Source: Natronolimnohabitans sp. A-GB9
Lineage (GTDB): Archaea; Halobacteriota; Halobacteria; Halobacteriales; Natrialbaceae
Direction: 5' to 3'
DNA: 64,000 nt
NCBI RefSeq assembly: GCF_030848565.1
Contig: NZ_JAVDDV010000002.1
Location: 248,001 to 312,000 of the forward strand
A program made the translations under genes and the position numbers. Within the stretch, counting starts at the first letter, position 1. Every line of letters begins with the position of its first letter. Below, one piece after another: positions 4,324-52,716 of the stretch. The notes beneath the pieces were generated by a model, which did no database searches, was not told the DNA's origin, and was given only the letters and a program-made list of their open reading frames with translations.

Positions 4324-5451
4324 ATGAATGGGACGGAGTACCACAGGTTGCTCGGGATCGGCGAGTCAGCGTTCGAATCCCTCGAGGACCATCTCGAAGA
4401 GCGAAACTACGACGGACTGGAGTACCGCCACGTCCCGGACTACCGCCGGGGGGTCGAACGCGGGACGGTCCTGATCGACGGCGAGGTCGTCCGCGGCTTC
4501 CCGAAGGTCCCCCGAACGCTCGTGCTGTCGGACGGGATCCCCGAGCGGTTCTCGACGGTCGCCGATCGGATCGCCGTCGAGGAGAAGTTAAACGGCTACA
4601 ACGTACGGATAGCGCGAATCGACGGCGAGGAGCTTGCCTTCTCCCGAAGCGGAATGGTCTGTCCGTTTACGACCCGAATTATCGAGCGGCTGGTCGACCT
4701 CGAGCCTCTCTTCGAGACTCACCCGGAGGCGATGGTCTGTGGCGAGATGATCGGTCCCGAGAACCCATACACGGCCCACGACTATCCGGAGGTCGATTCG
4801 CTGGCGTTTCGGGCGTTCGACTGGCGCGACCGGGAGTCCGGCGACCCCCTGCCCGTCGAGGAGCGCCGCGAGCGGTACGAACGGTTCGAGATCCCGCAGA
4901 CGCGGCTGTTCGGTAGCTACGAGATCGAAACCGCGGCCGACGAGGTTCGTGAGATCGTCGAGACCCTCGACGACGACGGTCGAGAGGGAGTCGTGATGAA
5001 ATCACCCGAAGGTGTCGACCAACTTAAATATACGACGTCGGCAGCGAACCAGGACGACCTCGAGTTTGCGTTCTCGCTTCCCTTCGACTACGGGCAGGCG
5101 TTTATGTTCCGACGCCTCATCCGGGAGGGGTTCCAGGCCGTCGAGTGGAACGAATCCGACGCGGTCGCCCGGGAGCGAGCCCACGAACTCGGCGAAGCGA
5201 TCTTGCTCTCGATGCGAGAGACGATCGAAACCGTCGATGACGGCGAGGTCGTCGGCGAACGTCACACTGTCCGGGCCAGCCCCGAGACGGTCGACGTCCT
5301 CTTCGAGCATCTCCGCGGACAAGGCCTCCAACTCGAGATCGAAGCGGACCGGCGCGAGGACGGCGACCGCGTCTGTACGTTCCTCAAACGCACCCAGTCG
5401 ACCACCGACAAGACGCGAAACTACCTCGAGGGACACGTCGTCCAGGAGTGA
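4324..5451 (+). CDS. Archaeal ATP-dependent RNA ligase (Pab1020/Rnl3 type)
   Basis: A 375-residue nucleotidyltransferase. Ligase motif I is EEKLNGYNVR with the adenylated Lys at about residue 88. Motif III is MVCGEMIGPENPY, motif IV REGVVMKSPE and motif V QLKYTTSA. A C-terminal helical domain follows, as in the Pab1020-type RNA ligases, which join or circularise RNA ends. The enzyme first forms ligase-AMP and then activates the 5'-phosphate. The PIN-domain partner is encoded divergently nearby. The stop codon TGA (5449-5451) is also the first three bases of a dispersed hairpin repeat. Confidence 0.9.
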   Translation: MNGTEYHRLLGIGESAFESLEDHLEERNYDGLEYRHVPDYRRGVERGTVLIDGEVVRGFPKVPRTLVLSDGIPERFSTVADRIAVEEKLNGYNVRIARIDGEELAFSRSGMVCPFTTRIIERLVDLEPLFETHPEAMVCGEMIGPENPYTAHDYPEVDSLAFRAFDWRDRESGDPLPVEERRERYERFEIPQTRLFGSYEIETAADEVREIVETLDDDGREGVVMKSPEGVDQLKYTTSAANQDDLEFAFSLPFDYGQAFMFRRLIREGFQAVEWNESDAVARERAHELGEAILLSMRETIETVDDGEVVGERHTVRASPETVDVLFEHLRGQGLQLEIEADRREDGDRVCTFLKRTQSTTDKTRNYLEGHVVQE

Positions 5452-5525
5452 TACGGTCTCCTGTCGTCACTGACCGCCGATCGCCAGGACGGGGTCGGGG
5501 ATCGGTGGGACAGCAGTCCGTATGA
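5449..5525. repeat. Hairpin repeat, family 1, copy A
   Basis: A 77-bp imperfect inverted repeat running from TGATACGGTCTCCTGTCG to CAGCAGTCCGTATGA, with CCGCCGATCGCC in the left arm and a degraded counterpart in the right arm. Its first TGA is the stop codon of the RNA ligase. It fills the gap before the sugar-dehydrogenase gene and matches copies at 39655, 46037 and 52632. Confidence 0.8.
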
Positions 5526-5611
5526 AACGGACAGACGAGAGCGGGGACGAAGACGGATATCAGGCCGTCGTTCAAGTGGTCTCGCGGGCTAGTATCCGAC
5601 GGTGAGTCCCC

Positions 5612-6787
5612 ATTCCTACGCCTGAACACACCCGGCGATCTCTACTGGCGGCCGGCGTGACAGCAGGAACGCTCTCCCTCGCGGGCTGTACGGGCTTCCT
5701 GTCGGACGAGGAGTTCCCCGGCGAAGTCGAGACGGTGGCCGATGGATTGGTCCATCCCTGGGCCCTCGAGTTTCTCCCGGACGACGCCCGGCTGCTCGTC
5801 ACGGAGCGTGAGGGACGGCTGCGTCTGGTCGATCGTGACGACGGGACCGTCGAATCCGTCGACGGCACGCCGGACGTGTACGCGGCGGGACAGGGCGGTC
5901 TGCTCGACGTGGCGCTCGATCCGGATTTCGAGGCGGAGCCGTGGGTGTATCTGACCTACGCCGCGACGAACGACGACGGCGAGTCGGCGACACATCTCGG
6001 CCGCGGCCGCCTCGAGCCCGACGATCCCACGCTCGAGTCGTTCGAAGAGCTCTACGTGGCCGAACCGTTTGTCGACGACGACGGCCACTTCGGCTCCCGC
6101 GTCGTCTTCGGTCCGGACGGGGCGGTCTACGTGACGACGGGTGACCGCCAGTTCAAGGATTTCGGTCCGGACCACGTCTCACAGGACCTGACGAACGAAC
6201 TCGGTGCGACGCTCCGTCTCGAGCCCGACGGCTCGATCCCCGAGGACAACCCGTTCGTCGACGATGACGACGCCGCGGACGCGATCTACAGCTACGGCCA
6301 CCGCAACGCCCAGGGGATGACCGTCCATCCCGAGACCGACGAGCTCTGGCAAAGCGAACACGGCGAAGAGGACGGCGACGAGCTCAACGTGATCGAGGCG
6401 GGCGGAAACTACGGCTGGCCGATCGCCCACACCGGCTGTGAGTACGGGACCGACGACCCCGTCGGCGACGACCCCCACGATCGGGACGACGTGGTCGATC
6501 CGGTCTACTACTGGGAGTGTACGACCGGTGGCTTCCCACCAGCCGGGATGACGTTCTACGACGGCGACGCGTTTCCCGACTGGCAAGGCGACCTGTTCGT
6601 CGGGAATCTGGCCGGCGAGTATCTCGGTCGGTTCACCGTCGACGGCACCGACGTCGAGGAAGCCGACCGGTTGCTCGCCGACCGCGGCTTTCGAATCCGC
6701 GACGTGGCGGTTGCCCCCGAGACGGGCTCCCTCTTCGTCGCCGTCGACGACGCCGATGCACCCATCCTCAGGCTAACGCCGGAGTAG
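5612..6787 (+). CDS. PQQ-type sugar dehydrogenase, Tat lipoprotein (non-standard start)
   Basis: Six-bladed beta-propeller of the soluble aldose/glucose dehydrogenase family: GLVHPWALEFLPD, GQGGLLDVALDPDF, HFGSRVVFGPDGAVYVTTGD and GHRNAQGM are its typical repeats and site residues. It would oxidise sugars outside the membrane if PQQ is available. The usual GTG start at 5657 begins inside the signal peptide. Reading back in frame gives PTPEHTRRSLLAAG then VTAGTLSLAGC, a complete twin-arginine lipoprotein signal, but the only codon where Met is expected (5612) is ATT. No ATG, GTG or TTG occurs between the in-frame stop at 5603 and 5657. Either ATT initiates or the start codon is mutated or misread. 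Confidence 0.8.
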   Translation: MPTPEHTRRSLLAAGVTAGTLSLAGCTGFLSDEEFPGEVETVADGLVHPWALEFLPDDARLLVTEREGRLRLVDRDDGTVESVDGTPDVYAAGQGGLLDVALDPDFEAEPWVYLTYAATNDDGESATHLGRGRLEPDDPTLESFEELYVAEPFVDDDGHFGSRVVFGPDGAVYVTTGDRQFKDFGPDHVSQDLTNELGATLRLEPDGSIPEDNPFVDDDDAADAIYSYGHRNAQGMTVHPETDELWQSEHGEEDGDELNVIEAGGNYGWPIAHTGCEYGTDDPVGDDPHDRDDVVDPVYYWECTTGGFPPAGMTFYDGDAFPDWQGDLFVGNLAGEYLGRFTVDGTDVEEADRLLADRGFRIRDVAVAPETGSLFVAVDDADAPILRLTPE

Positions 6788-6860
6788 CGACTGGATCAGG
6801 TATGACGACTGTACATGGAGACGGCCGAGCCCCGCTCGAGTCAGCCTTCGTGACTACATG

Positions 6861-7544
6861 TCATTCTCCGTTCGTAGCGATCTCTCGGATCCGGTCGCTG
6901 CCGCGGTCGACGTAGCCGCCGTGATAACAGACGACGTGTTCGATCCCCCGGTCCGCAAGCGCCTCGAGGGACTCGAGTGCGCGATCCATATCGGCAGTAA
7001 ACGCCGGCTTCGGTCCCGATAGCGGTTCGTCGCCGTCGGCGACGAGCGCGTCCCCGGCGAGCAACAGCCCGTCGTCGGGAAAGAGCAACGAGACGTGACC
7101 GGGCGTGTGGCCGGGCGTCTCGAGGACCTCCATCGACCCCGCGAGCGTCGGGATTTGGACCCCCTCGACGAGTTCCAGATCGACGTCGACCGACGGATAT
7201 CGGTCGCCGTCGCTCTTGATCGGCGCACGCTCGCCGGTCACGTACGGCGCCTCCTCACGGTGGGTCGCGACGACCGCATCGACCGACTCGAGCAACTCGG
7301 CCAGGCCGCCGACGTGGTCGCGGTCGTGGTGGGTGAGGAGAACGAGCCAGATATCCTCGAGTTCGTAGCCCAGCGACCGGAGGTGCGTGCGAACGGCGTC
7401 GACGGCCCCTGCCGGCCCGACGTCGATCAACACGAGCCCGCGTTCCGTCTCGACGACCGTCGGCGTGATCGTGAGTTCGCGGTCATCGTACTCGATCGTA
7501 AACGGGAGCGTGTGGACGCCTACGTCGCGTTCGTCTTCCTGCAT
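6861..7544 (-). CDS. MBL-fold metallo-hydrolase
   Basis: Metallo-beta-lactamase-fold hydrolase of 227 residues, starting at ATG 7544 ([15 protein letters not shown]). The reading frame stays open for 129 more codons upstream, but that part is antisense to L21e and lacks domain character. The metal motif reads [10 protein letters not shown], so the second His of HxHxDH is Asp, a variant common in this superfamily. Later ligands are in [16 protein letters not shown] and the C-terminal CYHGG. The family includes glyoxalase-II-like and other hydrolases; the substrate cannot be predicted. It is divergently transcribed from the L21e operon. Confidence 0.82.
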
Positions 7545-7620
7545 ACTCGAGTCGTCCGTCCCCAGAACGAAATGGCTGTCCGTCCAGCCGCTTCGGACAG
7601 CGAGTCGAGCGAAGACGTGC

Positions 7621-7631
7621 GTTTTATAACC
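7621..7631 (+). promoter_or_regulatory. TATA box of the L21e-Rpo4 operon
   Basis: GTTTTATAAC lies about 33 nt upstream of the L21e ATG, within the 114-nt gap to the divergent MBL gene. The spacing fits a transcript with a very short leader, as is common in haloarchaea. Confidence 0.6.
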
Positions 7632-7658
7632 GTCACCGGTCAAGGGGGTCGTACGACT

Positions 7659-7967
7659 ATGCCGAACTCTAATGGCCCTCGTCAGGGAACTCGAGGCAAG
7701 CTGTCGAACGATCCGCGAGACCGTGGCACCTCCGCGCCACAGCGAGCGATTCAGGAGTACGAGGAAGGGGAGAAGGTCCACCTCAAGATCGACCCAAGCG
7801 TCCACAAGGGGCGATTCCACCCGCGCTTCGACGGACTGACCGGCGAAGTCGTCGGTAAACAGGGCGACGCCTTCAAGGTGCAGATCAACGACGGTGGCAA
7901 GGACAAGACCCTGATCGTCACCGCCGCGCACCTGCGTGCCCAGAACCAGGAGAAGTCCCGGATCTGA
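7659..7967 (+). CDS. rpl21e: 50S ribosomal protein L21e
   Basis: A 102-residue basic/acidic ribosomal protein with the L21e signature [14 protein letters not shown] near the N-terminus and [19 protein letters not shown] in the SH3-like barrel. It belongs to the large ribosomal subunit. The ATG at 7659 fits the TATA box at 7621; longer upstream frames are antisense to the MBL gene. It is followed after 6 nt by rpo4, the conserved archaeal arrangement. Confidence 0.97.
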
Positions 7968-7973
7968 GCCAGG

Positions 7974-8330
7974 ATGACGATCTTCAAGGAGATCGTCGAC
8001 GAGGAGTTCCTGACGGTCTCGGAGACGAAGGAGCTGCTCGCCGACATCGAAGCCGAACGCGCGTTAGACGAGGACCGCGAGCTCCCCTACGAGCTCGCCC
8101 GCGCGATCGAACACGCAAACCGGTTCGCCGTCCTCGAGCCCGAGGAAGCACAGGAGCTCGTCGACGACCTACGGGACCTCGAGAAGGTCGACGAGCCGAC
8201 GGCGTACAAGATCGCCAACCTCCTACCGCGCAACCGCGACGAACTCCGTTCGGTGTACGCACAGCAACGGTACTCGCTGTCCGGTGACGAACTCGACGAA
8301 ATCCTGGACGTCGTCGCGAAGTACGCCTGA
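7974..8330 (+). CDS. rpo4: DNA-directed RNA polymerase subunit Rpo4 (RpoF)
   Basis: A 118-residue helical protein with the HRDC-like core of the Rpb4/RpoF family: a SETKELL helix near the N-terminus and TAYKIANLLPRNRDELRSVY near the C-terminus. It forms the stalk of archaeal RNA polymerase with Rpo7, contacting nascent RNA and initiation factor TFE. Encoded directly after L21e and before the DUF655 gene, as in most euryarchaea. Confidence 0.95.
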   Translation: MTIFKEIVDEEFLTVSETKELLADIEAERALDEDRELPYELARAIEHANRFAVLEPEEAQELVDDLRDLEKVDEPTAYKIANLLPRNRDELRSVYAQQRYSLSGDELDEILDVVAKYA

Positions 8331-8343
8331 CGGCGGGCCGACT

Positions 8344-8352
8344 CTTTAAGTA
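8344..8352 (+). promoter_or_regulatory. Internal TATA-like element before the DUF655 gene
   Basis: TCTTTAAGT sits 25-33 nt upstream of the ATG at 8377 and favours that ATG over the one at 8365. It could give a secondary leaderless transcript starting inside the operon. Confidence 0.45.
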
Positions 8353-8376
8353 CGCCGTCGCCGTATGGTTATCTCA

Positions 8377-8973: not shown

Positions 8974-9201
8974 GCGGTCGTCCCTGCCCCGTCGCCGCTC
9001 GACGGGGTTTTCGATCCATTCTCGGGCGTACAGTTTCCTTATCTCTACATTCAGGAAGAGGGTGTGAAATGGTATCGATGGTTTCGACACTCGTACTCGC
9101 AGCGGGTACCCGTCTCCCGTGACGGGCGTCCACGATGGAACGGAGACGTCCGCGAGCCCCAAGACGGTGCGTTTACACCGGCCCCGGCCCAAGCGGCGGC
9201 A

Positions 9202-10044: not shown

Positions 10045-10166
10045 CCGGCGGGAGCGTCGATAACCACCGTTCAGCAGAAGTGCCTCGAGAACGGCTCACA
10101 GTCCCGGTAGCGACCGACGGATACTCATAGCTGCACGGCCCATTCGCTCGAGAGACGAGACAGATC

Positions 10167-13072: not shown

Positions 13073-14142
13073 GCAACGAGAACAAAGATCAGTTCCGACC
13101 GGAGGATCACGACAACGACCACTTCCTGCTGACGACCGTCGTCGGCTCCTACCCCAAGCCCAAGTGGCTCAACCGCGCGAAGGAGCTCTACGAGGACCCC
13201 GACCACGGCTTCGACGAAGAGGACTGGCAGGAAGCGAAAGACGACGCCGCCCGCCTGATCACGCAGGAACACGAGCGTGCGGGACTCGACGCCGTCGTCG
13301 ACGGCGAGATGCGGCGCAACGAGATGGTCGAGTTCTTCGCCCACCGCATCGAGGGCTACGAGTTCAACGGCCCGGTCAAGGTCTGGGGCCACAACTACTT
13401 CGACAAGCCAAGCGTCGTCAGCGACGTCGAGTACACCGACTCCTGGCTCGTCGACGAGTACGAGTTCACCGCAAGCGCCACCGACCGTCCCGTGAAGGTG
13501 CCGATCACCGGCCCCTACACGCTCGCCAGCTGGTCCTTTAACGAGGCCTACGAGGACGACGAGGAACTCACCTACGCGCTCGCCGACCTCGTCAACGAGG
13601 AGATCGAGAAACTCGTCGAGGCCGGCGCTCGCTACATCCAGATCGACGAGCCCGCACTGGCGACCACGCCCGACGACCACGCTATCGTCGGCGAGGCACT
13701 CGAGCACATCGTCGACGACATCCCGGAGGAGGTCCGCATCGGTCTGCACGTCTGTTACGGTGACTACTCCCGGATCTACCCCGAGATCCTCGAGTTCCCC
13801 GTCGACGAGTTCGACCTAGAGCTCGCCAACGGCGACTACGACCAGCTCGACGTCTTCAAAGATCCCGAGTTCACCGCGGATCTGGCACTCGGCGTCACCG
13901 ACGTCCACGTCGCCGAGGTCGAGTCCGTCGAGCAGATCGAGGAAAACATCAAGAAGGGTCTCGAGGTCGTCCCACCGGAGCAGCTGGTCGTCTCGCCCGA
14001 CTGTGGCGTGAAACTGCTGCCCCGTGAGGTCGCCTACGGCAAGATGGAGAACATGGTCGAAGCGGCTCGGAACGTCGAAGCCGATCTGGACGCGGGCAAC
14101 ATCGACATCGAACGCGAGACGCCGACACCGGCCGACGACTGA
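13069..14142 (+). CDS. metE: Core methionine synthase (MetE catalytic domain type)
   Basis: A 357-residue cobalamin-independent-type methionine synthase corresponding only to the catalytic C-terminal barrel of bacterial MetE. Evidence: TTVVGSYPKPKWL at the start, VDGEMRRNEMVEFF, ITGPYTLASWSF, QIDEPAL, the Zn ligands in GLHVCYGDY and the distal Cys in VSPDCGVKLLP. Archaeal core enzymes of this type lack the folate-binding N-terminal domain, so the methyl donor may be a corrinoid or another pterin carrier. Overlaps the upstream gene by ATGA. Confidence 0.88.
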   Translation: MSNENKDQFRPEDHDNDHFLLTTVVGSYPKPKWLNRAKELYEDPDHGFDEEDWQEAKDDAARLITQEHERAGLDAVVDGEMRRNEMVEFFAHRIEGYEFNGPVKVWGHNYFDKPSVVSDVEYTDSWLVDEYEFTASATDRPVKVPITGPYTLASWSFNEAYEDDEELTYALADLVNEEIEKLVEAGARYIQIDEPALATTPDDHAIVGEALEHIVDDIPEEVRIGLHVCYGDYSRIYPEILEFPVDEFDLELANGDYDQLDVFKDPEFTADLALGVTDVHVAEVESVEQIEENIKKGLEVVPPEQLVVSPDCGVKLLPREVAYGKMENMVEAARNVEADLDAGNIDIERETPTPADD

Positions 14143-14380
14143 GACGGACACCTGTAACGGTTTCTCGGCACAACGCAGACGAACCACGGTTGTGCCGGCC
14201 CCGACTTCTATTCGCGATCCGAACAGTTCGTAGTAGAAACGTTCGCTTTACTTTAGTTACGATACTATTGTATATATTCGTAGAAGTGGGGAATGAGCAC
14301 ACGGATCGACGACGTGACTGTTACCTGGTAACCCAAATGTCTAAAAATACATACATAGCTCCTGTCCCTACCGGGAACTG
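14143..14380. other. Intergenic region with promoter-like AT blocks
   Basis: No gene. A short TGAGACGGACACCTGT, starting on the metE stop codon (14140), resembles the left end of hairpin family 1. AT-rich blocks at about 14260-14280 (ATTGTATATATTC) and 14343-14355 (AAAAATACATAC) are TATA-like. The second sits about 26-38 nt before the nitroreductase ATG and is its likely promoter. Confidence 0.45.
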
Positions 14381-16137: not shown

Positions 16138-17214
16138 ATGGAGAGCGACGAACTCACCGAGACCCTCGAGGACGCGGGACTCTCACCGTATCAGGCCGAC
16201 GCGTTCGTGACGCTGCTCGAACTCGGCTCCGCGTCGGCGACGGACGTCGCACAGGCCAGTTCGGTTCCGGATCCGCGCATCTACGACGTACTCCGGGGAC
16301 TCGAGGACCAAGGCTACATCGAGACGTACGAACAGGACAGCCTCCATGCCCGGGCCCACGATCCGGCGGAAGTGCTCGCGGACCTGCGCTCGCGGGCGGA
16401 TCGGTTCCAGACCGCGGCCGACGAGATCGAGGATCGGTGGAGCCGACCGGACATCGAGGAACACAAGGTGAGCATCGTCAAGCGGCTCGATACGGTGCTC
16501 GACCAGGCCGAGGAGTCGATTCGATCCGCCACGAACCAGGTCCAGATCGGACTGACACCCGCACAGTTCGACGAGCTCGCGGACGCCCTCGAGACAGCCC
16601 GTGAGAACGGCGCCGACGTCAAGGTCTGTCTGGTCCCGTCGGTCGACACCGAAATGGATCTCCCCTCGGCGGACGCGCTCGCCCGTGCCTGTACGGAAGC
16701 GCGACACCGGAGCGTTCCGTCGCCGTTTCTGGCGCTGATCGACCGCTCCCGGACGTGTTTCGCGCCCCACGGCGAGTCGACCAACGAGTACGGCGTCATC
16801 GTCAACGATCGAACCCACGCGTACGTCTTCAACTGGTACTTCCAGACCTGTCTCTGGGAGGTCCAGGAGACGATCCACTCGAACCGACGTGACGAGCCGC
16901 CGATTACGTACGTCGACCTCCGGCGTTGTCTCAGGGACGTCGAACCCCTCCTCGAGGAGGGTGCGACGATCGAGATGACGATCGACGCCCTCGAAACCGA
17001 CTCCGGCCGAGAGGTGACCCGACGGGGAACGATCGCCGACGTCACGTACGCCGGCGTCTCCACCGACGACGAACGGATCACGCCGCTGTCCCAGCTCGCA
17101 GGCAAGGCCTCGCTCACGCTCGAGACCGGCGACGAGCGCTACACTGTCGGCGGCTGGGGAGCGATGCTCGAGGACCTCGAAGCGACCCGACTCACGATCG
17201 AGTCGATCGACTGA
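16138..17214 (+). CDS. TrmB-family sugar-responsive transcriptional regulator
   Basis: A 358-residue regulator. The N-terminal winged helix reads LEDAGLSPYQADAFVTLLEL, then a coiled-coil linker (about residues 80-110), a phospholipase-D-like core and the C-terminal sugar-binding domain of TrmB. A GTG three codons upstream (16129) is an alternative start. TrmB proteins repress or activate sugar transport and gluconeogenic genes depending on the bound sugar. Its position just before the ABC operon, and the shared 15-bp palindrome, make that operon the likely target. Confidence 0.9.
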   Translation: MESDELTETLEDAGLSPYQADAFVTLLELGSASATDVAQASSVPDPRIYDVLRGLEDQGYIETYEQDSLHARAHDPAEVLADLRSRADRFQTAADEIEDRWSRPDIEEHKVSIVKRLDTVLDQAEESIRSATNQVQIGLTPAQFDELADALETARENGADVKVCLVPSVDTEMDLPSADALARACTEARHRSVPSPFLALIDRSRTCFAPHGESTNEYGVIVNDRTHAYVFNWYFQTCLWEVQETIHSNRRDEPPITYVDLRRCLRDVEPLLEEGATIEMTIDALETDSGREVTRRGTIADVTYAGVSTDDERITPLSQLAGKASLTLETGDERYTVGGWGAMLEDLEATRLTIESID

Positions 17215-17381
17215 GACGGACCGTTGTACTGACGGATAGCGATCCGTACGACGGCGCTCTCGAATTTATTTTCGACGCGACATTTCGGAGAGCCGTATCT
17301 GTGGCGTAGCGATCCGGAAAGCAGCTGAGAGAGTAGCGAGGAGTGAACAGACACGGTTTTCGGAGATAATATCTCTAGTTA

Positions 17382-23560: not shown

Positions 23561-24529
23561 ATGGAGATCGGAGTTCACACGCCACCGTTAGCGGACGAAT
23601 CGCTCGAGGGGGCACTCACGTACCTCTCGGACATCGGTGTCGACGCGATCGAACCGGGCGTCGGCGGCCATCCTGGCGACGACCACCTCGTCCGTCGGGA
23701 GTATCTCGACGACGAAGATGCACAGGCGGAGTTACACGCGCTCCTCGAGGAGTACGAGATGCGGATCAGCGCGCTGGCGACGCACAACAACCCGCTCCAT
23801 CCCGACGAAGAACGCGCAGAGACGGCCGATACCGAACTTCGTGAAGCGATCCAGCTCGCCGCCCAACTCGAGGTAGGGACGGTCACCTGTTTCTCGGGGC
23901 TGCCCGCCGGCGGCCCCGACGACGACGTCCCGAACTGGATCACTGCCCCCTGGCCGCCCGAACACGACGACGCCCTCGAGTACCAGTGGGACGTCGCCGT
24001 CGACTACTGGGGGGATCTCGCGGAGTACGCCGACGACCACGGCGTCGACCTCGCCATCGAGATGCACCCGAACATGCTGGTCTACGAACCCCACGGCATG
24101 GCCCGCCTTCGTGAGGAGACCAACGAGCGAGTCGGCGCGAACTTCGATCCCTCCCACCTCTACTGGCAGGGGATCTCGATCACCGACGCGATCCGTTATC
24201 TCGGCGAACGCGACGCGATTCATCACGTCCACGCCAAAGATACGAAGGTCTACGAGGAACAGGCCCGCGAGAAAGGCGTCCTCGATACGACCGCTTACGA
24301 CGACGAGCCCAACCGCTCGTGGCTCTTCCGGTCGGTCGGCTACGGCCACGGCGAAGACCACTGGAAAGACGTCGTCTCGACGCTTCGAATGGTCGGCTAC
24401 GACGGCGCTCTGAGCATCGAACACGAAGACTCCCTCACCAGCTCCCGGGAAGGACTCGAAAAGGCCGTCGAACTCCTCGAGCGGGCCCTCTTCCGAGAGC
24501 AGCCCGGCGAGGCCTACTGGGCCGAGTGA
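23561..24529 (+). CDS. Sugar phosphate isomerase/epimerase family TIM-barrel protein
   Basis: A 322-residue member of the xylose-isomerase-like TIM barrel group. Metal-binding acidic residues are visible in DLAIEMHPNML, VGANFDPSHLYWQG, IHHVHAKDTK and ALSIEHED, the four-ligand pattern of this family. It could epimerise or isomerise keto sugars or inosose. Surrounded by three Gfo/Idh/MocA genes. Its TGA stop (24527) is the first triplet of a 114-bp hairpin repeat. Confidence 0.88.
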   Translation: MEIGVHTPPLADESLEGALTYLSDIGVDAIEPGVGGHPGDDHLVRREYLDDEDAQAELHALLEEYEMRISALATHNNPLHPDEERAETADTELREAIQLAAQLEVGTVTCFSGLPAGGPDDDVPNWITAPWPPEHDDALEYQWDVAVDYWGDLAEYADDHGVDLAIEMHPNMLVYEPHGMARLREETNERVGANFDPSHLYWQGISITDAIRYLGERDAIHHVHAKDTKVYEEQAREKGVLDTTAYDDEPNRSWLFRSVGYGHGEDHWKDVVSTLRMVGYDGALSIEHEDSLTSSREGLEKAVELLERALFREQPGEAYWAE

Positions 24530-24640
24530 TACTGTCGGACAGCAGTCAGTGACCCGTCGGTCGCGAATTCGCGGCCGTCACCGTCGGCGACGGCCGCAGT
24601 AGTGCGACCGACCGGTGAATAGTGCTGTCTGACGGTATGA
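24527..24640. repeat. Hairpin repeat, family 1 variant, copy K
   Basis: A 114-bp inverted repeat starting on the stop codon. Outer arms are TGATACTGTCGGACAGCA and, at the other end, TGCTGTCTGACGGTATGA (16 of 18 complementary). The centre holds GGTCGCGAATTCGCGGCC and more palindromic sequence. A related copy lies at 26228. Confidence 0.75.
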
Positions 24641-24715
24641 CCGACCGCGCGACCGGTCACAGGTCCGCGTCGGATGACACAAACCTCTAACTACACCTAT
24701 TGTGAATGAATACGC

Positions 24716-39654: not shown

Positions 39655-39738
39655 TGATACGGTCTACTGGAGTCACGTACCGCCGATCGCCGACCCGTCC
39701 TGGCGATCGGCGGGACATCGGTACCGCAGTCCGTATGA
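39655..39738. repeat. Hairpin repeat, family 1, copy B
   Basis: 84 bp from TGATACGGTCTACTGG to GCAGTCCGTATGA. It contains perfect 12-bp arms CCGCCGATCGCC (39680-39691) and GGCGATCGGCGG (39702-39713). It occupies the convergent gap between the PEBP-like gene and nucS, one base from the nucS stop codon. Confidence 0.85.
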
Positions 39739-39739
39739 T

Positions 39740-40528
39740 CTACGCCGTCGGCTCGAGCGAGACGAACTCGAGGCCGTGCTCGACGAGGAGCCGATCGGCC
39801 CGGTCAGTCACGGAGGGTGCGACGAGGATCCCGCGCACGTCGGCACCGGCGTGGAGGTCACGTTCGAGGGCGTCGACGTATCGGCGCAACTGGCCGACCG
39901 CGTCCGGGCCGACGCGGCGGCGCTTGAGCTCGACGACGACCGTCCGTCCCGCGGTGTCCTCGCCGTAGATGTCGACGGCTCCCGCGGGCGTGTCCCGTTC
40001 GGTCGCAAGCGGCGTGAAGCCGGGCTCGAGCAAGCTCGGCTCCTCGAGGATCCGACGGCGGAGGTCTTCTTCGGTCCCGGACAGCGATAGGTCGTTCTCG
40101 TCGGTCCCCGAGAACGCCGAGACCTGGAGCACGCGCTGGAAACGAACGCGGAGACGCTCGTCGGGCGTCGAGCGAGCGCTCTCGAGGACGAGGGCATCCA
40201 CGTCTGTGGTCCCGTCGTCGTCGTCGGTCGCCTCGGGGCCCTCACAGAAGACGTCGTGCTCACAGCCCGGCGGCTGCCAGTTGACCGGCTGCTGGCCTTC
40301 GTCGGTATGAACCAGTGCCGCGCCGTCGGGTTTGAGCATGACGTGACGGTCACCCGCCTCGAGCGTACTCGAGGCTCGCCCCTCGTAGTCGACGGTACAG
40401 CGGCCGAAGACAGTCACGAGCGCCTCGCGCTCGATCCCGTCGGCGATGGCCTCGCAGGCGGCCGAAAGCGTTGGCTGCTCGAGAGAGACGACCTGCGAGG
40501 ACTGCGATGGCGATGTCCCGGAGGTCAC
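39740..40528 (-). CDS. nucS: Mismatch/branched-DNA endonuclease NucS (EndoMS)
   Basis: A 262-residue NucS. The N-terminal dimerisation domain (CTVDYEGRASSTLEAGDRHV, VMLKPDGAALVH, PVNWQPPGC) is followed by a PD-(D/E)xK nuclease domain with GAVDIYGED and VVVELKRRRVGPDAVGQLRR. EndoMS/NucS cuts both strands at mismatches in archaea and Actinobacteria. It has an acidic halophilic insertion of about 30 residues in the linker. Convergent with the PEBP-like gene. Confidence 0.93.
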   Translation of the reverse strand: MTSGTSPSQSSQVVSLEQPTLSAACEAIADGIEREALVTVFGRCTVDYEGRASSTLEAGDRHVMLKPDGAALVHTDEGQQPVNWQPPGCEHDVFCEGPEATDDDDGTTDVDALVLESARSTPDERLRVRFQRVLQVSAFSGTDENDLSLSGTEEDLRRRILEEPSLLEPGFTPLATERDTPAGAVDIYGEDTAGRTVVVELKRRRVGPDAVGQLRRYVDALERDLHAGADVRGILVAPSVTDRADRLLVEHGLEFVSLEPTA

Positions 40529-45024: not shown

Positions 45025-45137
45025 CGTTTACCACGTTCAACCTATATTTCATAAATCCGCTGGTCGGAGGCCATCCCAAATCGGGATCGGTGAATTCGAT
45101 CGAGTGATATCGCGGACTGGTCGAGAACTCACTCGAC

Positions 45138-45968: not shown

Positions 45969-46036
45969 ACGATATCTTCGAACCAGCAGGACAAAACGAC
46001 GACGGAATATCGGCAAACGGGTACGCGATCGACGAT

Positions 46037-46120
46037 ATCGTACGGATCGTTACTCAATCACCGCCGATCGCCGACCCGTATCTGGCGACCGGCGAGACAC
46101 CGTTACAACGATCCGTATCA
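46037..46120. repeat. Hairpin repeat, family 1, copy C
   Basis: Roughly 84 bp from CGTACGGATCGTTACTC to GTTACAACGATCCGTATCA. Both arms carry ACGGATCGTTA/TAACGATCCGT-like sequences where other copies have a different pair, so the arms have changed together. The final TCA is the stop codon of the DUF371 gene (minus strand). Confidence 0.8.
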
Positions 46121-46531
46121 CTCCACGCGGATCGTCACCGTCGCCTCGGCGCCGTCGGCCAGCGCGGCGACGAGATCGCGGTCGAATCCCGCCGCGGCGA
46201 ACTCGGCGTCGTTTACGATCGTCCGATCGTCGATATAGTCGCTGGTCCGACCCACCGCGCTGCGCTCGTTCGTGAACTCGAGGTCGGGATCGCCCCGTCC
46301 GGTCACCGAATCTCGGTGGCCGTCGGCCTCGATTTCGACGGTGATCGTCGCGTCCCGATCCTGACACGCGTCGACGAACGCGGGATCGAAGTCAGCCGGC
46401 GCACGATCGGCCTCGACCGCGAGAATGCAGTCACCGGCGGGCGTGAGATAGTCGTCGGTCGTCACCTCGAACGTACTCGAGTGCTCGGCGGAGACGTTCT
46501 CGTGGCCTCGAGCGTGGATGATCTCTTCCAT
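46118..46531 (-). CDS. DUF371 family protein
   Basis: A 137-residue archaeal DUF371 protein. MEEIIHARGHENVSAEHSST followed by FEVTTDDYLTPAGDCILAVE is the conserved start, and the C-terminal half is beta-rich. Function unknown. The reading frame opens 30 codons earlier, but ATG 46531 starts exactly at the conserved region. Divergent from the histidine kinase. Confidence 0.85.
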   Translation of the reverse strand: MEEIIHARGHENVSAEHSSTFEVTTDDYLTPAGDCILAVEADRAPADFDPAFVDACQDRDATITVEIEADGHRDSVTGRGDPDLEFTNERSAVGRTSDYIDDRTIVNDAEFAAAGFDRDLVAALADGAEATVTIRVE

Positions 46532-46648
46532 GTCCGGCGGTTCGTTGCCTGCCAGAAAACGGCCTCGAAGTCCGTCGATCGGCCGATCCGTCGGAAATCG
46601 ACCATGTAGCACAACGCCCATTACCGTGACCTCGAATGGGAGTGTACA

Positions 46649-48817
46649 GTGGTCGCCCGAAACCGTCTTCGCTCCCCAACCGGTGCGAGGCGTGCAATCG
46701 GCGTCCTCGGCGGACTGTACATCGCCCTCGCCGTCGGCTTAGCGCTCGTACAGCTCCGGCAGGGAACGCCGTTGGGAAACGTCGTCATCGTCACACTGCT
46801 CATCGTGATCCCCGGGTTCGGGCTCAGTTACGGAAGCCAGTGGCTCTCCCGGTCCGACATCGATCCCGAGTTCTACCCGACCGTGTTCCGCTGGTGTCTC
46901 GGAGGTTTCGGAGCGATAGCGAGTATACTCGTGCTCTATCACCTCCAGCCTGCCGGAGGGATCACCACGCCGGAAACGACGTCGTCGATCCTGACCGCAC
47001 TCGGTACGCTCGCAGGCTTTGCCGTGGGTTCCCACGATGGACGAGCTAAAACCCGAACCCGAGAGCTCGAGCAACGCAATCGAGAACTCGAGAAGACGCA
47101 GGCGAAACTCGAGGAGACGGTCCAGCGACTCGAAGAGACGAACATCCAGCTCGAGGGCTCGAACGAGCGTCTCGAGCGCTACAGGGAGTACACCGACGAA
47201 GTGTTGGATTCGATCCACGACGTCTTCTACGTTCTCGAAGCAGACGGCACGCTGGTCCGGTGGAACGAGAGCCTCGAAGCGGCTACCGGCTACGACAACG
47301 CGGACATTTCGTCGATGACCGCCGCGGAGTTTTTCACACCAGACGACAGCGAACGGGTCACGGCGGCGGTTGCAGAGGGGTTCGAAACCGGAAGCGTACA
47401 GCTCGAGGCGAACCTGCTCACCAGCGACGGTGAGCGGATCCCTTACGAGTTCGCCGCGTCGAAACTCGAGACCCCCGCGGGCGAGTCAGTGCTCGCCGGC
47501 ATCGGACGCGACATCTCCGAACGCAAAACGCGAGAGCGAACACTCGAGAAGCGAGCCCACCAGCAACGGGTCGTGGCCGACCTCGGTCAGTTCGCACTCG
47601 AGACCGACGACCTCGACGAACTCATGCGCGAAGCGAGCCGAAAGGTGGCCGCCGTCCTCGACACCGACTACTGCAAAGTGCTCGACCTCGACACGGAGAG
47701 CGAGGCGCTTCTGCTTCGTCAGGGCGTCGGCTGGAACGACGGCCTCGTCGGTGAGGCGACGGTGTCGGCCGTCGAAGCGAACTCCCAGGCCGCGTACACC
47801 CTCGAGGCCGACCGTCCGGTCGTCGTCGAGGATCTCGAGAGCGAAACGCGGTTCAGTGGTCCCCAGCTGTTGCGGGATCACGACGTCCACAGCGGGGTCA
47901 GCACCGTCATCGGACCGTTCGACGAGCCATGGGGGATCCTGGGCATCCACGACACCGAACGGCGGACGTTTACCGAAGATGACGTCACGTTCGTCAAAAG
48001 CGTCGCCAACGTCCTGGCCGAAGCGATCGAGCGCCGCCAGTACCGGGACGAACTCGAGACGTTGATCGACGACCTCGAGGAGTCCAACGTCCGTCTCGAA
48101 GAATCGAACGAGCGGTTAGAGCAGTTCGCCTACGCCGCCAGCCACGACCTGCAGGAGCCGCTGCGAATGGTGTCGACCTATCTGCAACTGATCGAGCGCC
48201 GCTACGGCGACGAACTCGACGAGGAGGGCGAGGAGTTCCTCGAATTCGCCGTCGACGGCGCCGATCGTATGCGTTCGATGGTCGACGGGTTACTCCAGTA
48301 CGCACGCGTCGAAACGGGCGGCGAACCGTTCGAGCCCGTCGATCTCGAGGCCGTCCTCGAGGGCGCTCGTGAGGATCTCCGGATGCGTATCGAGGAAAGC
48401 GACGCCGAGATCACTGTCGATACGCTGCCACGTGTCGAGGGAGACAGCGGACAGTTACGACAGGTGTTCCAGAATCTGTTGTCGAACGCGATCCGGTACA
48501 GCGGTGACGAGCCACCGCGAGTACACGTCTCCGCCGAACGAAACGGGACGGAGTGGACGGTCTCGGTAACCGACGCGGGAATCGGTATCGATCCGGACGA
48601 TCAGGAACTGATCTTCGAGATCTTCGAGGGGTTACCCGGTGACGACGAGTACGTGGGGACTGGGATCGGCCTCGCCGTCTGTGAACGAATCGTCGAACGC
48701 CACGGCGGCGAAATCTGGGTCGACTCCGAACCCGGTTCCGGGGCGACGTTTTCCTTTACGCTCCCGGCAGCGACCGACGATCGACCGCCGTCAGTCGAGA
48801 CGGAACGCCGTCACTGA
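46649..48817 (+). CDS. Sensor histidine kinase with PAS and GAF domains
   Basis: A 722-residue membrane kinase. Four N-terminal hydrophobic segments (residues 14-135), a coiled coil (about 138-182), a PAS domain (185-295: VFYVLEADGTLVRWNESLEA), a GAF domain (305-460), a second coiled coil, HisKA with the phospho-acceptor H499 in YAASHDLQEPLRMVSTYL, then HATPase_c (NLLSNAIRY, VTDAGIGID, GTGIGLAV). It lacks a receiver domain. The signal is unknown. Starts with GTG; stop TGA is followed by GACGG as in other repeat-linked genes. Confidence 0.93.
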   Translation: MVARNRLRSPTGARRAIGVLGGLYIALAVGLALVQLRQGTPLGNVVIVTLLIVIPGFGLSYGSQWLSRSDIDPEFYPTVFRWCLGGFGAIASILVLYHLQPAGGITTPETTSSILTALGTLAGFAVGSHDGRAKTRTRELEQRNRELEKTQAKLEETVQRLEETNIQLEGSNERLERYREYTDEVLDSIHDVFYVLEADGTLVRWNESLEAATGYDNADISSMTAAEFFTPDDSERVTAAVAEGFETGSVQLEANLLTSDGERIPYEFAASKLETPAGESVLAGIGRDISERKTRERTLEKRAHQQRVVADLGQFALETDDLDELMREASRKVAAVLDTDYCKVLDLDTESEALLLRQGVGWNDGLVGEATVSAVEANSQAAYTLEADRPVVVEDLESETRFSGPQLLRDHDVHSGVSTVIGPFDEPWGILGIHDTERRTFTEDDVTFVKSVANVLAEAIERRQYRDELETLIDDLEESNVRLEESNERLEQFAYAASHDLQEPLRMVSTYLQLIERRYGDELDEEGEEFLEFAVDGADRMRSMVDGLLQYARVETGGEPFEPVDLEAVLEGAREDLRMRIEESDAEITVDTLPRVEGDSGQLRQVFQNLLSNAIRYSGDEPPRVHVSAERNGTEWTVSVTDAGIGIDPDDQELIFEIFEGLPGDDEYVGTGIGLAVCERIVERHGGEIWVDSEPGSGATFSFTLPAATDDRPPSVETERRH

Positions 48818-48921
48818 GACGGAGCCCTGTACCGATTACCCGGCCCATCCTGGGACGGTCACGGGTGTGCCAGCACCGACCGACAGCAGCCCGAATGCGT
48901 CGGTCGCCGTCTTCGAGTCCC

Positions 48922-50265
48922 CTAGACCAGACTCGCACCGTCGAACTCGCCGCGGCTGTACTCGACGTCCAGCAGATCGAGGATCGTCGGCGTGATATCG
49001 AAGAGGTCGGCGTCGCCGATCGTCGCGTCGGGATGGTCGATGAACAACGCGGTGTCGTCGAAGCTGTGCATTCCGTTTCGCGGGCCGGACGTGAAGACGT
49101 CGGAATCCGCTTTGAAGCCGGATTTGAGGTCGAAGCCCTTGTTCGGGATCGCGACCAGATCCGGCGCGATGTCGTCGTGATCGCCGCGGAACGCGGCCTC
49201 CTTCTCGACGACGCGGTCGACGACCTCGTTGCCGTCCGGCCCCTCGAGTGCCTCGAGTTCGGCCTTGAGTTCGTCGCGGACCGCATCGTACTCTTCCTCG
49301 GGGACCGAGCCACGCGGTTCGCGGCCCTCGAGATTGATGTAGAACCGACCAGGAATGAACGAGTATGCCCGCGTGTCGTCGGCGATGTCGCCCAGTTCCT
49401 CGGGGTCGTCGGTTCGGAAGGAGAGCCACCCCTCCTCCCGAAGCCACTCGTTGAAGTGGACTTCGTAGTCCAGGCTGGTAAAGCCGTGGTCGGAGGCGAC
49501 GATCAGGGTAACGTCTTCGGGAAGTGTCTCTCGGAGACGACCGATGTAGTCGTCGACCTTTCGATAGAATTCGACGAATTCGTCTTTGTACTCGCCGTCG
49601 CGTTCGTAATCCTTGAACAGGAAGTGGTTGACCCGGTCGGTCGTCATGAAGACGCCGAAAAACAGCTCCCAGTCGTCCTCCTCGATGTACCGTTTGAACG
49701 CCTCGAAGCGGGCGTCGAGGGTCGCGTGGGCGTCCTCGATGAACTCGGCTTTGTCCTCCTGGTGACCGAGTTTCGGATTGACGTCGATCCGGTAGTCGAT
49801 CGACTCGAGATAGTCACGAACGTCGTCGGGGTAGGCGGCCTTCTCAAGGTCCGGCGAAAGAAAGCCCGAGACCATTCGCTGGACGTTCCGCTGTGGGGGG
49901 AAGGTAACGGGAACGTTCATCACGGTCGCTCGTCGGCCATCCTCCTGGACGCGGTCCCAGACGCGGTCGGCCTGGACTTCCTGGCCCATCGGGACGTAGG
50001 TGTCGTAGGTTCCGACCTCCCGGTCCTGGAAGCCGTAGACGCCCGTTTCACCGGGGTTCACACCGGTCGTCAGTGCCGGCCAGCAGGCGCTGGATTCGGG
50101 CGGAACGATACTCGAGATTTCGCCCGCGGTTCCGTCCTCGGCGAGCGCTGCGAAGTTAGGAAACAGGTCTTCGTTTTCCGATAAGAGACTGTACGGCACG
50201 CCGTCGACCCCAATAAATGCGACGCGGGGGGTGTCGTCGCCCCGCAATCGATCGAACAGACCCAT
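48922..50265 (-). CDS. Alkaline-phosphatase-superfamily hydrolase (phosphodiesterase/pyrophosphatase type)
   Basis: A 447-residue AP-superfamily protein: FIGVDGVPYSLLSE supplies the first metal Asp, PPESSACWPALTTGVNPGE the nucleophile region, MTTDRVNHFLF and VASDHGFTSLDYEVHFNEWL further ligands. This resembles the nucleotide pyrophosphatase/AP3A hydrolase and archaeal 'predicted AP superfamily' group. No signal peptide, so it is cytoplasmic. The substrate is unknown. ATG 50265 (MGLFDRLRGDD) chosen over 50292. Confidence 0.85.
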   Translation of the reverse strand: MGLFDRLRGDDTPRVAFIGVDGVPYSLLSENEDLFPNFAALAEDGTAGEISSIVPPESSACWPALTTGVNPGETGVYGFQDREVGTYDTYVPMGQEVQADRVWDRVQEDGRRATVMNVPVTFPPQRNVQRMVSGFLSPDLEKAAYPDDVRDYLESIDYRIDVNPKLGHQEDKAEFIEDAHATLDARFEAFKRYIEEDDWELFFGVFMTTDRVNHFLFKDYERDGEYKDEFVEFYRKVDDYIGRLRETLPEDVTLIVASDHGFTSLDYEVHFNEWLREEGWLSFRTDDPEELGDIADDTRAYSFIPGRFYINLEGREPRGSVPEEEYDAVRDELKAELEALEGPDGNEVVDRVVEKEAAFRGDHDDIAPDLVAIPNKGFDLKSGFKADSDVFTSGPRNGMHSFDDTALFIDHPDATIGDADLFDITPTILDLLDVEYSRGEFDGASLV

Positions 50266-50464
50266 GGCCGTGGGTAGTTCAACCGTATACAAGAAGGTTC
50301 GTTTCGGGACACTATATTGAGAATATCTGGGACACGTTCACGAATACGCGGACTGTCCAACGGCGTCGACACGACGAGCGTGACGTGCCTCGAGCGACGG
50401 GCGATAGAACGGGTGCGAGCGCGACGACAGCGATATCTGCCGCCTTCGGGCGACAAAAACGGGA

Positions 50465-50599
50465 CTACTCGTCGGAGTCGTCGTTTTCGGCAGCGTCGAA
50501 GTTCGTCGGGACGACCGTCAGGTGGTTCATACCGACGCCGGCATCGGTACAGTCGTCCTCGTCGGTCGGCGTTCGGGTGGGTCGGTTGGATGCTGCCAT
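50465..50599 (-). CDS. 44-residue small acidic protein
   Basis: MAASNRPTRTPTDEDDCTDA then GVGMNHLTVVPTNFDAAEND and four more residues. It has its own TATA-like element (TAATTTTAA on the minus strand, about 24-34 nt upstream) and a 17-bp palindrome just upstream, so it is probably a real gene despite the size. I do not recognise a family. A single Cys; no membrane segment. Confidence 0.55.
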   Translation of the reverse strand: MAASNRPTRTPTDEDDCTDAGVGMNHLTVVPTNFDAAENDDSDE

Positions 50600-50641
50600 G
50601 ACAACTCATCGTTGGTCGGCAGACGGGTTAAAATTACCCAT

Positions 50642-50658
50642 GCTCATAATGCATGAGC
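50642..50658. promoter_or_regulatory. Palindrome upstream of the 44-residue gene
   Basis: GCTCAT-AATGC-ATGAGC, perfect 6-bp arms, located about 43-59 nt upstream of the small gene's ATG and just upstream of its TATA-like element. This is a typical activator or repressor position in archaea. Confidence 0.5.
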
Positions 50659-50759
50659 GAAACGGGTGTCGATAACTCCGGTGTATCCGGTGGTGACTGT
50701 GAGGACAGAACGAACGCGTTCGACGGCGGCGCACCCTAAAAAACGAACGAACGGATGAA

Positions 50760-51293
50760 TTACTCGAAGTTCTCTTCGTAGAGGTCCTGGGCGTGTTCGA
50801 TCGCGTCGTATGCGGCCTGCTTGTCCTCCCAGCCCAGGGTTTCGACTTCCTTGCCTTCCTCTAAGTTCTTGTACGTCGCGAAGAACTCGTCGATCTCGTC
50901 GAGTTGCTGCTGTGGGATGTCGTCGAGGTCTTCGATGTGATCGTACCGCGGGTCCTCGGACGGCACCGCGATGACCTTATCGTCTTGCTCGCCGTCGTCG
51001 TCCATCTTCATCAGAGCGACGGGACGAGCCTCGATGACACAGCCGGGGAACGTCTGGTCTTCGACGAGCACGAGGACGTCGAAGGGGTCCTCGTCGTCGT
51101 AGTAGGACTGCGGGATGAAGCCGTAGTCGCTCGGATAGTGAACGTTGCTGTGGAGCACGCGATCGAGGACGACGCCGGGAACGTCCTTGTCGTACTCGTA
51201 TTTGTTTCGCTCGCCTTTGAGACACTCGACGACGGCGTAGATCTCTTCTGGCGGGTTCGGTCCGGTCTCGAGGTCTTCCCAGAGATTGACCAT
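50760..51293 (-). CDS. ppa: Inorganic pyrophosphatase
   Basis: A 177-residue family I (soluble) pyrophosphatase, hydrolysing PPi to two phosphates. NKYEYDKDVPGVVLDRVLHS, YPSDYGFIPQSYYDDEDPFD then VLVLVEDQ, and the DPRYDHIEDLDD loop carry the Mg-binding Asp/Glu set. The upstream frame to 51521 is a shadow; ATG 51293 matches the family length. A T-rich TATA candidate (GTACTTTTTGA, minus strand) lies near 51320. Confidence 0.95.
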   Translation of the reverse strand: MVNLWEDLETGPNPPEEIYAVVECLKGERNKYEYDKDVPGVVLDRVLHSNVHYPSDYGFIPQSYYDDEDPFDVLVLVEDQTFPGCVIEARPVALMKMDDDGEQDDKVIAVPSEDPRYDHIEDLDDIPQQQLDEIDEFFATYKNLEEGKEVETLGWEDKQAAYDAIEHAQDLYEENFE

Positions 51294-51468
51294 GTACCCG
51301 GAACTGCAACGGTGGATCAAAAAGTACTTTCGTAATCGACTGTCATCTTCCACATGACGGTTACCAGATACCCAACGATGAACTCCGGGCGAAACCACCA
51401 GTGTCCGGCGACGTCGCAACCGATCGACGACGAGTTGATCGGCCGATCGCAGGGAATAGTTGACAAGT

Positions 51469-51479
51469 CTTAAATAGTC
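51469..51479 (+). promoter_or_regulatory. TATA box of the PadR regulator gene
   Basis: CTTAAATAGT, about 20-30 nt before the ATG at 51499, suggests a leaderless transcript divergent from ppa. Confidence 0.6.
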
Positions 51480-51498
51480 TGGTGACATTTGCACAAGT

Positions 51499-51858
51499 AT
51501 GTCAGAGGCACAATCAATCACCGGCGAACAGAGTATTGCGCGCGAACTTACGGCGTTTCAGACCAACATCCTCACGATCCTCGCCAAAGAGCCGATGTAC
51601 GGCCTGGCGATCAAGCGTGAACTCGAGGACTACTACGGAACGGAAGTAAACCACGGACGCCTCTACCCGAACCTCGACGAGCTCGTCGAACTCGGCTTAG
51701 TCGAAAAGAGCGAACTCGACAAGCGAACCAACCAGTACTCGCTGACCGACGACGGCTACGAGGCCGTCCTCGACGGCATCCAGTGGTCGCTCTCGAAGAT
51801 CGTCACCGACGACGAGCGCGCCGACGAGATCAGCGAGATCGTCGACGACAGCTACTAA
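51499..51858 (+). CDS. PadR-family transcriptional regulator
   Basis: A 119-residue winged-helix protein. TAFQTNILTILAKEPMYGLA, IKRELEDYYGTEVNHGRLYP and NLDELVELGLVEKSELDKRT are the PadR DNA-binding domain; a short C-terminal helix follows. Its ligand and targets are unknown. It is a one-gene unit, divergent from ppa and convergent with the rnhA operon. Confidence 0.88.
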   Translation: MSEAQSITGEQSIARELTAFQTNILTILAKEPMYGLAIKRELEDYYGTEVNHGRLYPNLDELVELGLVEKSELDKRTNQYSLTDDGYEAVLDGIQWSLSKIVTDDERADEISEIVDDSY

Positions 51859-51912
51859 CCGACAGCCACAGCCGCAAACCCACCAGAACCACCAGTTGCG
51901 GTTGCAGTCGCG

Positions 51913-52560
51913 TTACCGGTCCTGTCGGTCAGGAACCGGTTTTCCGGCCGTCTCGTAGACGAATTCGATCGAGTCGTCGATAGCCGCTCGCTGAGCGGCC
52001 GACGGCCACGCGTTTCTAACGAAGTACTCGGTCCGAAACTCCCGTAGCTCCGCGGCCGTCAGCTCTTCGATCCGTTTCGCGTAGTGGTTTCCGACGAAAT
52101 CTGCCAGTACGGCGGCGTTGTCGCCGTGGACGTCGCCGTGGCGTTCTCGAACCCGATCGACGAGTTCACGGTTGTGGTCGTCGACGTCGTCCCAGTCGTC
52201 GGGATCGCCCGTTCCCTCGAGCGGAATCTCGACCGCCCGAGAGGTGTCCTCGATTCGATCCGTACGGATGACGCCCTCGTCGGCGTCGCGCCACTCCGCA
52301 GGATAGAGAACGAGCGTGTCGTCGCCGTCGTCGTCACGGATCCGCGCGGTGAACTTGTACTCCTCGAGAAGCGTCGCTCGCCGTTGGACGTAGGCATCGG
52401 CCTCGTTCTCGTCCGGCGTCCGTCGAGCCAATCGGGTCAGTCGTTCGGCCTCGTCGATGACCTCGGTAGGGAGCTCCCCCGTCTCGGACGCTTCCGTCGT
52501 CGCCTCGGATGCGTCGAACTCCTGGTCGGCGTCCTCGAGCGATTCGTTCGATTCGGTCAT
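51913..52560 (-). CDS. RnhA operon protein (haloarchaeal conserved)
   Basis: A 215-residue acidic soluble protein found next to RNase HI in haloarchaea. It has LPTEVIDEAERLTRLARRTP, an RDDDGDDTLVLYPAEWRD segment, and a C-terminal helical domain ending in EFRTEYFVRNAWPSAAQRAA. No biochemical role known; the link to rnhA suggests nucleic-acid metabolism. A hairpin repeat separates it from rnhA. Confidence 0.75.
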   Translation of the reverse strand: MTESNESLEDADQEFDASEATTEASETGELPTEVIDEAERLTRLARRTPDENEADAYVQRRATLLEEYKFTARIRDDDGDDTLVLYPAEWRDADEGVIRTDRIEDTSRAVEIPLEGTGDPDDWDDVDDHNRELVDRVRERHGDVHGDNAAVLADFVGNHYAKRIEELTAAELREFRTEYFVRNAWPSAAQRAAIDDSIEFVYETAGKPVPDRQDR

Positions 52561-52631
52561 ACACCTGCGTACGCACTCGAGGGCTTTTCCCTTGCTGGTC
52601 TCGCTTCCGTCTGCTGTCGTCCCACGGTGTC

Positions 52632-52716
52632 TTATACGGTCTACTGTAGTCACTGACCGCCGATCGCCGACTCCGTTCTGGCGACCGGCGGTAAACAGTT
52701 ACAGCAGTCCGTATCA
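52632..52716. repeat. Hairpin repeat, family 1, copy D
   Basis: 85 bp from TTATACGGTCTACTGTAGTC to ACAGCAGTCCGTATCA, with CCGCCGATCGCC on the left and GGCGACCGGCGG on the right (one G-T-type change). The last TCA is the rnhA stop codon on the minus strand. Confidence 0.85.

Follow-up and report, generated by a model that had tools for sequence, protein, structure and literature searches.

A probable MITE-like hairpin element at TNA triplets and stop codons of a haloarchaeal genome

We analyzed a 64,000-nucleotide stretch of the Natronolimnohabitans sp. A-GB9 genome (contig NZ_JAVDDV010000002.1, positions 248,001 to 312,000; hereafter the window), in which four near-full copies of a hairpin repeat lie beside the genes for an RNA ligase, NucS, a DUF371 protein and an RNase H-type protein. 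A first-pass annotation had proposed that such repeats either insert at a preferred target or are kept as stop-plus-terminator cassettes. Comparison of the copies makes us highly confident that they belong to a non-autonomous element resembling miniature inverted-repeat transposable elements (MITEs). It is about 79 bp long, inserts at TNA (mainly TGA or TCA, in a GWC-TSA-GWC-like context) with a 3-bp duplication and would be mobilized by an enzyme acting in trans, with stop codons as good, harmless targets.

The repeat in the window and its family

All four near-full copies were found where the first-pass annotation had placed them (Table 1), and each folds as a long hairpin (-34.7 to -42.2 kcal/mol). 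We confirmed that three of them border on a TGA or TCA that is the adjacent gene's stop codon (RNA ligase, DUF371 and RNase H), that the fourth lies one base from the nucS stop, and that three shorter TGAGACGG starts fall exactly on the stops of the genes for a MetE-like protein, TrmB and a histidine kinase. From their sequence, we read these three starts, at 14140, 17212 and 48815, as degenerate relatives of the element. Another 78-bp degenerate relative, with TCG at either side, lies at 55122-55199. Within the window, Rfam gave 0 matches above the gathering score and a tRNA search found none.

Table 1. Element copies, relatives and adjoining genes in the window
Feature	Coordinates	Strand	Remark
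RNA ligase gene (Pfam RNA_ligase)	4324..5451	+	stop carries copy 1
Left TNA duplication, copy 1 (TGA)	5449..5451	+	RNA ligase gene stop codon
Element core, copy 1	5452..5522	+	71 bp, internal deletion
Right TNA duplication, copy 1 (TGA)	5523..5525	+	
metE-like gene TGA stop, then truncated relative of CCGGCGCAACCG sub-family	14140..14200	+	no right end located; last coordinate approximate
trmB TGA stop, then 34-bp end-to-end deletion derivative, then CGA	17212..17251	+	
Left TNA duplication, copy 2 (TGA)	39655..39657	+	intergenic; no called gene's stop codon
Element core, copy 2	39658..39735	+	78 bp
Right TNA duplication, copy 2 (TGA)	39736..39738	+	nucS stop one base further
nucS gene beside copy 2	39740..40528	-	stop CTA/TAG at 39740-39742
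Distal flank, copy 3 (TCG)	46038..46040	+	read as decayed TCA duplicate
Element core, copy 3	46041..46117	+	77 bp
Gene-side TNA, copy 3 (TCA)	46118..46120	-	DUF371 stop codon
DUF371 gene	46118..46531	-	
Histidine kinase TGA stop, then degenerate relative, then TGC	48815..48898	+	relative 78 bp, 48818-48895
Distal flank, copy 4 (TTA)	52632..52634	+	
Element core, copy 4	52635..52713	+	79 bp, 100.4 bits
Gene-side TNA, copy 4 (TCA)	52714..52716	-	RNase H gene stop codon
RNase H-type gene (rnhA)	52714..53307	-	

The home genome (4.3 Mb, 72 contigs) was searched with a covariance model built from 28 copies, flanks excluded, which found at least 148 distinct places; all counts over 148 below refer to the distinct places among the matches listed for this model. 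The window copy at 5449 is not one of these, which brings the family to at least 149 members. A BLAST search with one copy yielded 315 candidates, of which the best 40 were scored. The element, about 79 bp, reads TACGG[A/T]CT[G/C]CTGT ... ACAG[C/G]AG[A/T]CCGTA with a long internal palindrome, and its terminal inverted repeats are evident in the alignment (TACGG(T)CT.CTGT versus the reverse complement TACGG(A)CTGCTGT). Copies differ in the direction of the central loop (GACCCCGTCC versus GGATGGGGTC; for example C34:27522 versus C12:314583), as if it had been inverted inside the stem. Several features by which MITEs are recognized were found: terminal inverted repeats, a target-site duplication (see below), many copies and a length too short to code.

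Matches at E of 1e-6 or better were present in 54 of 119 sampled genomes, home included, of which 48 belong to the same family. One relative (G064) carries many near-identical copies, which suggests recent movement. Sister sub-families show the same ends and TNA duplications around different central stems (for example CCGGCGCAACCGCGACCCGGG), and some of them lie at stops as well. Three weak relatives were present in plasmid records, and no relative turned up in phage records. In a metagenome-assembled genome (Halobacteriales archaeon QS_5_68_33, L276), we saw several hairpins of the same size that have different ends (TACGGTCGGTTGT, TACTGCCGGCTGT), the ends of each copy matching one another.

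Target triplets and stop codons

The triplets flanking the element were identical in 91 of the 148 copies (TCA/TCA 55, TGA/TGA 34 and TAA/TAA 2, in element orientation); when the right flanks were shuffled among copies in 20,000 trials, identical pairs averaged 46.9 and never exceeded 66. TNA stood on at least one side in 141 copies and on both sides in 102, the middle base being the same in 91 of the latter. The inverted combinations TGA/TCA and TCA/TGA together account for only 4 of 148 copies, and the flanks are therefore not an extension of the palindrome. By sequence, the TGA/TCA edge lies outside the element and is a 3-base TNA target-site duplication around a 79-bp TACGG...CCGTA core. 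The idea of insertion at a preferred target was thus right in kind and needed correction in detail: the target is the TNA triplet, and TACGG is sequence of the element itself.

Relatives gave a similar picture. Among the matches listed, identical triplets flanked 40 of the 47 G064 copies and 19 of the 25 from a second relative, G014 (including one TTA/TTA pair); the counts for both genomes cover the top-listed 72 of 78 distinct places, six weaker and mostly sister-type places being left out. A loose scan for pairs of ends returned 176 candidates, most of them chance matches, since only 13 had identical triplets and 22 lay at stops, with 52 inside genes.

To place the copies relative to genes, we called genes in the 509 kb around them with a codon-usage script of our own rather than a published tool. 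A flanking triplet was exactly a gene's stop codon in 70 of 148 copies, on both sides in two of them, giving 72 occupied stops. Stops made up 219 of 2895 non-coding TCA/TGA sites in the same stretches with elements masked (7.6%), or 10.6% if the 100 bp preceding each start were excluded, and the association seen in the window therefore extends genome-wide. Across the 148 copies, no called gene ended 2-4 bases from the element or read more than one base into it. Gene-side triplet conservation at these sites was not counted as evidence, because the sites were chosen by that triplet being a stop. The first-pass annotation had also described all copies as intergenic and at gene 3' ends. The first part stands, with 0 of 148 copies inside called genes, a figure partly fixed beforehand, since a gene that takes an insertion is divided in two; the second does not, 16 copies lying between divergent genes.

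The type of stop codon was strongly skewed. Occupied stops comprised 69 TGA, 3 TAA and 0 TAG, compared with 220 TGA, 89 TAA and 107 TAG among the 416 free stops (P 5e-10 for TAG avoidance; P 1e-7 for TGA over TAA). The share of copies at stops was alike for high-, middle- and low-scoring copies (14/35, 30/62 and 26/51). Among the matches listed, 22 of 47 copies in G064 and 6 of 25 in G014 lay at stops, against expectations of 7.8-11.3% and 4-5%, respectively. Taken together, the sequence comparisons establish TNA insertion with duplication, TAG avoidance and an excess at TGA stops.

We also looked for sites without the element by joining the flanks of each of the 148 copies and searching for matches across the junction. 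The site at C4:17424 is element-free at C56:61926-62015 (ungapped 90 bp, 96.7% identity) and at C1:307304-307392 (ungapped 89 bp, 94.4%), each with a single triplet, TGC instead of TGA. The host of this copy is a third dispersed repeat (CTAGTGGCGGTCCACGCCTG.ACTGCTGGGTCGAA...), also present at these two places (L109 and L088). The copy at C1:95830 lies in a second dispersed repeat, and 23 other places in the home genome (74-81% identity) span its junction, all with a single TGA. This second repeat, of about 110-120 bp (TGATACTGTCGGACAGCAGTCAGT...CGGTCGCGAATTCGCGGCCGTC...), occurs at 24523-24647 of the window and at 22 places elsewhere in the home genome, and is itself a target of the element.

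Comparisons between species were less exact. The covariance model found the element at the DUF371 stop in none of 75 loci fetched with the DUF371 protein; 28 related loci listed, some of the same species, have an element-free gene end (TGA 16, TAG 10 and TAA 2). Within one genus (g5), one site could be followed by synteny and had no element in the eight relatives listed, the intergenic DNA being too diverged to fix the exact junction; the other site falls on a rearrangement breakpoint. For the window sites, alignments across species mostly had gaps near the junction, and clean empty sites were found within the genome only. In G064, the element and a neighboring repeat (L189:995-1226) lie at a synteny break between species of the genus, as seen against G122, G005 and G148.

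We propose that an enzyme acting in trans would recognize the ends of the element and cut there. Insertion into a TGA stop would rebuild the stop at the edge of the element and leave the protein unchanged, and most other insertions would be removed by selection. Stops would be good targets because TNA covers TGA and TAA on either strand and because GAC/GTC-TGA is a frequent gene end in this genome; insertions there would be harmless to the protein, and would persist, because the duplication restores the stop. A target triplet that is also a stop codon, restored by duplication, would offer a simple route to a near-harmless mobile element in a gene-dense genome. The elements may also serve as markers of haloarchaeal genome history, and they point to a mobilizing enzyme.

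Points against the proposal and alternative explanations

Several observations weigh against this proposal. No identical triplet pair was present in 57 of 148 copies, and TNA stood on neither side in 7; we read these copies as decayed. In G014, 3 of 25 copies had TCA/TGA flanks. We scanned loci of PF01609 transposases for ends resembling TACGG and for inverted ends bordered by a 3-bp duplication, and no autonomous element with TACGG-like ends was found at 12 such loci in the home genome or at 30 of 82 matches in five relatives. IS1031-type transposases are expected to carry DUF4096 plus DDE. DUF4096 scored above the cut-off in 0 of 101 genomes of the family, with one weak match, and in the home genome there was none. 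Ends without the usual stem were seen 17 times in 11 genomes and 10 times in 14, and none belonged to a multi-copy insertion sequence; where the end motif adjoined a non-family interior in these two sets, it marked short palindromes of other kinds, nested insertions or single ends.

Insertion sequences at PF01609 loci with guessable ends were rejected as partners, since their ends differ (for example GGCTCTGGTGAATC or TGCTTCGTAGGACCGCTA). We also rejected a copy at a contig end (L205) as the autonomous partner, where an unrelated insertion-sequence-like end (GTACGTGTTTAGCCC) lies inside an element. An insertion-sequence-like end (GTAYGTGTTTAGCCC...; L205, L218-L237) is present in 17 of the 101 genomes of the family; in G064 it often sits at the end of a contig, and one copy lies within an element.

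A further difficulty is the size of the excess at stops. For the target motif we used 88 of the 91 identically flanked copies, excluding the TAA pairs and one short flank, and found a palindromic site preference of about cgWC-TSA-GWcg, also at the 48 non-stop sites. Of these 88 TSA copies, all with full context, 40 (45%) lay at stops, exceeding the motif-weighted expectations of 17% (non-coding-side matrix) and 26% (non-stop-site matrix; P 5e-5 against the latter, odds ratio of about 4.7 in a logistic fit). The GWC-TSA-GWC-like preference resembles haloarchaeal gene ends and accounts for part of the excess at stops, and the neutrality of a rebuilt stop probably accounts for the remainder.

The same surplus over the motif would be expected if the enzyme, or the element through its enzyme, had evolved to recognize gene ends, making stops the true target and not a by-product of TNA and selection. 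The share at stops in G064, whose high-scoring copies look recent, is the same, in keeping with this idea. Purifying selection against other intergenic insertions, however, yields the same excess, the palindromic motif is present at non-stop sites too, and the share at stops is similar across copy scores. On balance we regard true stop targeting as rather unlikely; if it were real, the system might become a tool to insert DNA at gene ends with proteins left intact. A broader picture, less likely than not, would be an archaeal transposition system adapted to gene ends, with an enzyme that is not of the IS1031 type and may be of an undescribed kind. This enzyme would recognize the 9-bp palindrome GWC-TSA-GWC, which mimics the commonest haloarchaeal gene terminus, and the 3-bp duplication would rebuild the stop. 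A superfamily with exchangeable central stems would then use stops as a safe harbor across haloarchaea.

According to the cassette explanation, the hairpins are retained at gene ends for transcription termination or for protection of mRNA 3' ends. Strong hairpins do adjoin stops, and a reporter hairpin ended 59% of transcripts in Haloferax volcanii (PMC7237163). Moreover, 56 of 148 copies lie between convergent genes, compared with 44 convergent pairs among 304 element-free ones, an enrichment that selection against promoter insertions also predicts. However, termination would not need the avoidance of TAG, which is occupied at none of the 72 stops and makes up 107 of the 416 free ones; TAG is not TNA, and the cassette explanation is therefore not needed for this pattern. 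Passages of PMC8716108 describe archaeal termination as relying on U-tracts, with a hairpin not strictly required, and a gene-sense TTTT was present in 0 of 70 elements at stops. TTTT was more frequent within 100 bases beyond the element (29% versus 15% of 175 control TGA stops; TTTTT 10% versus 7%), so a native signal may lie there. In addition, 78 of 148 copies lie away from called stops.

Nor was the stem better kept at stops. We compared the 84 copies of exactly 79 bp with random mutants of the consensus having the same column variability. Stem stability equaled the random-mutant expectation at stops (mean z -0.06, 37 copies) and elsewhere (-0.01, 47 copies) alike (P 0.98). With TAG stops unoccupied, no gene-strand TTTT and no better stability at stops, the cassette proposal of the first-pass annotation finds no support in these sequence data, and we consider it very unlikely, although the hairpins may have some effect on termination in vivo. 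Repeats at gene ends are easily mistaken for terminators; direct versus inverted flanks, and the type of stop (TAG never being used), discriminate between the two, and both criteria would serve equally for repeats elsewhere. REP or IS200/IS605-type palindromic units (PATE-like), moving as single strands, are likewise short, palindromic, intergenic and numerous, but the element has terminal inverted repeats and a 3-bp duplication, and PATEs are described without either in the passages of PMC3119063 devoted to them, leaving this explanation exceedingly improbable.

Comparison with known systems

Our search of the mostly open-access literature, by titles and the openings of abstracts, found neither this family nor stop-codon insertion with a rebuilt stop.

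RUP, Correia and ERIC elements target TA, and their ends and target differ from those of the element. Pneumococcal BOX, RUP and SPRITE elements and REPs are, like it, small repeated intergenic elements, and the pneumococcal ones are bunched and insert into one another (PMC10969869). They differ in that this 2024 review of prokaryotic MITEs describes no stop-codon mechanism for them in the sections concerned, and the term 'stop codon' is absent from its main text.

Closer parallels come from haloarchaea, whose MITEs and small mobile repeats (SMRs) are described in PMC3119063. The MITEs of Haloquadratum walsbyi resemble the element in being short and non-coding, with terminal inverted repeats, a target duplication, many copies and insertion into other repeats, and mobile MITEs in genomes lacking a working transposase are noted there as well (PMC3119063). 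Unlike the element, for whose ends we found no transposon, these MITEs have ends that match known transposons, and a stop-codon preference does not appear in the MITE passages of that paper. SMR-A and SMR-B of Haloquadratum share with the element a similar size (80-110 bp), inverted terminal repeats, the lack of a related transposon and a target preference; the SMRs are described there without target duplication, in contrast to the 3-bp TNA duplication seen here, and SMR-A prefers IS605-type elements and PATEs, whereas the element prefers gene ends (PMC3119063).

The IS1031 group of the IS5 family differs from the element in its DUF4096-type transposase, with the result for the 101 family genomes given above, and the single IS1031-group end that PMC12016507 quotes is unlike the TACGG ends. 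It is alike in the features that define the target, namely a preference for 5'-TNA-3' and an exclusively 3-bp duplication (PMC12016507).

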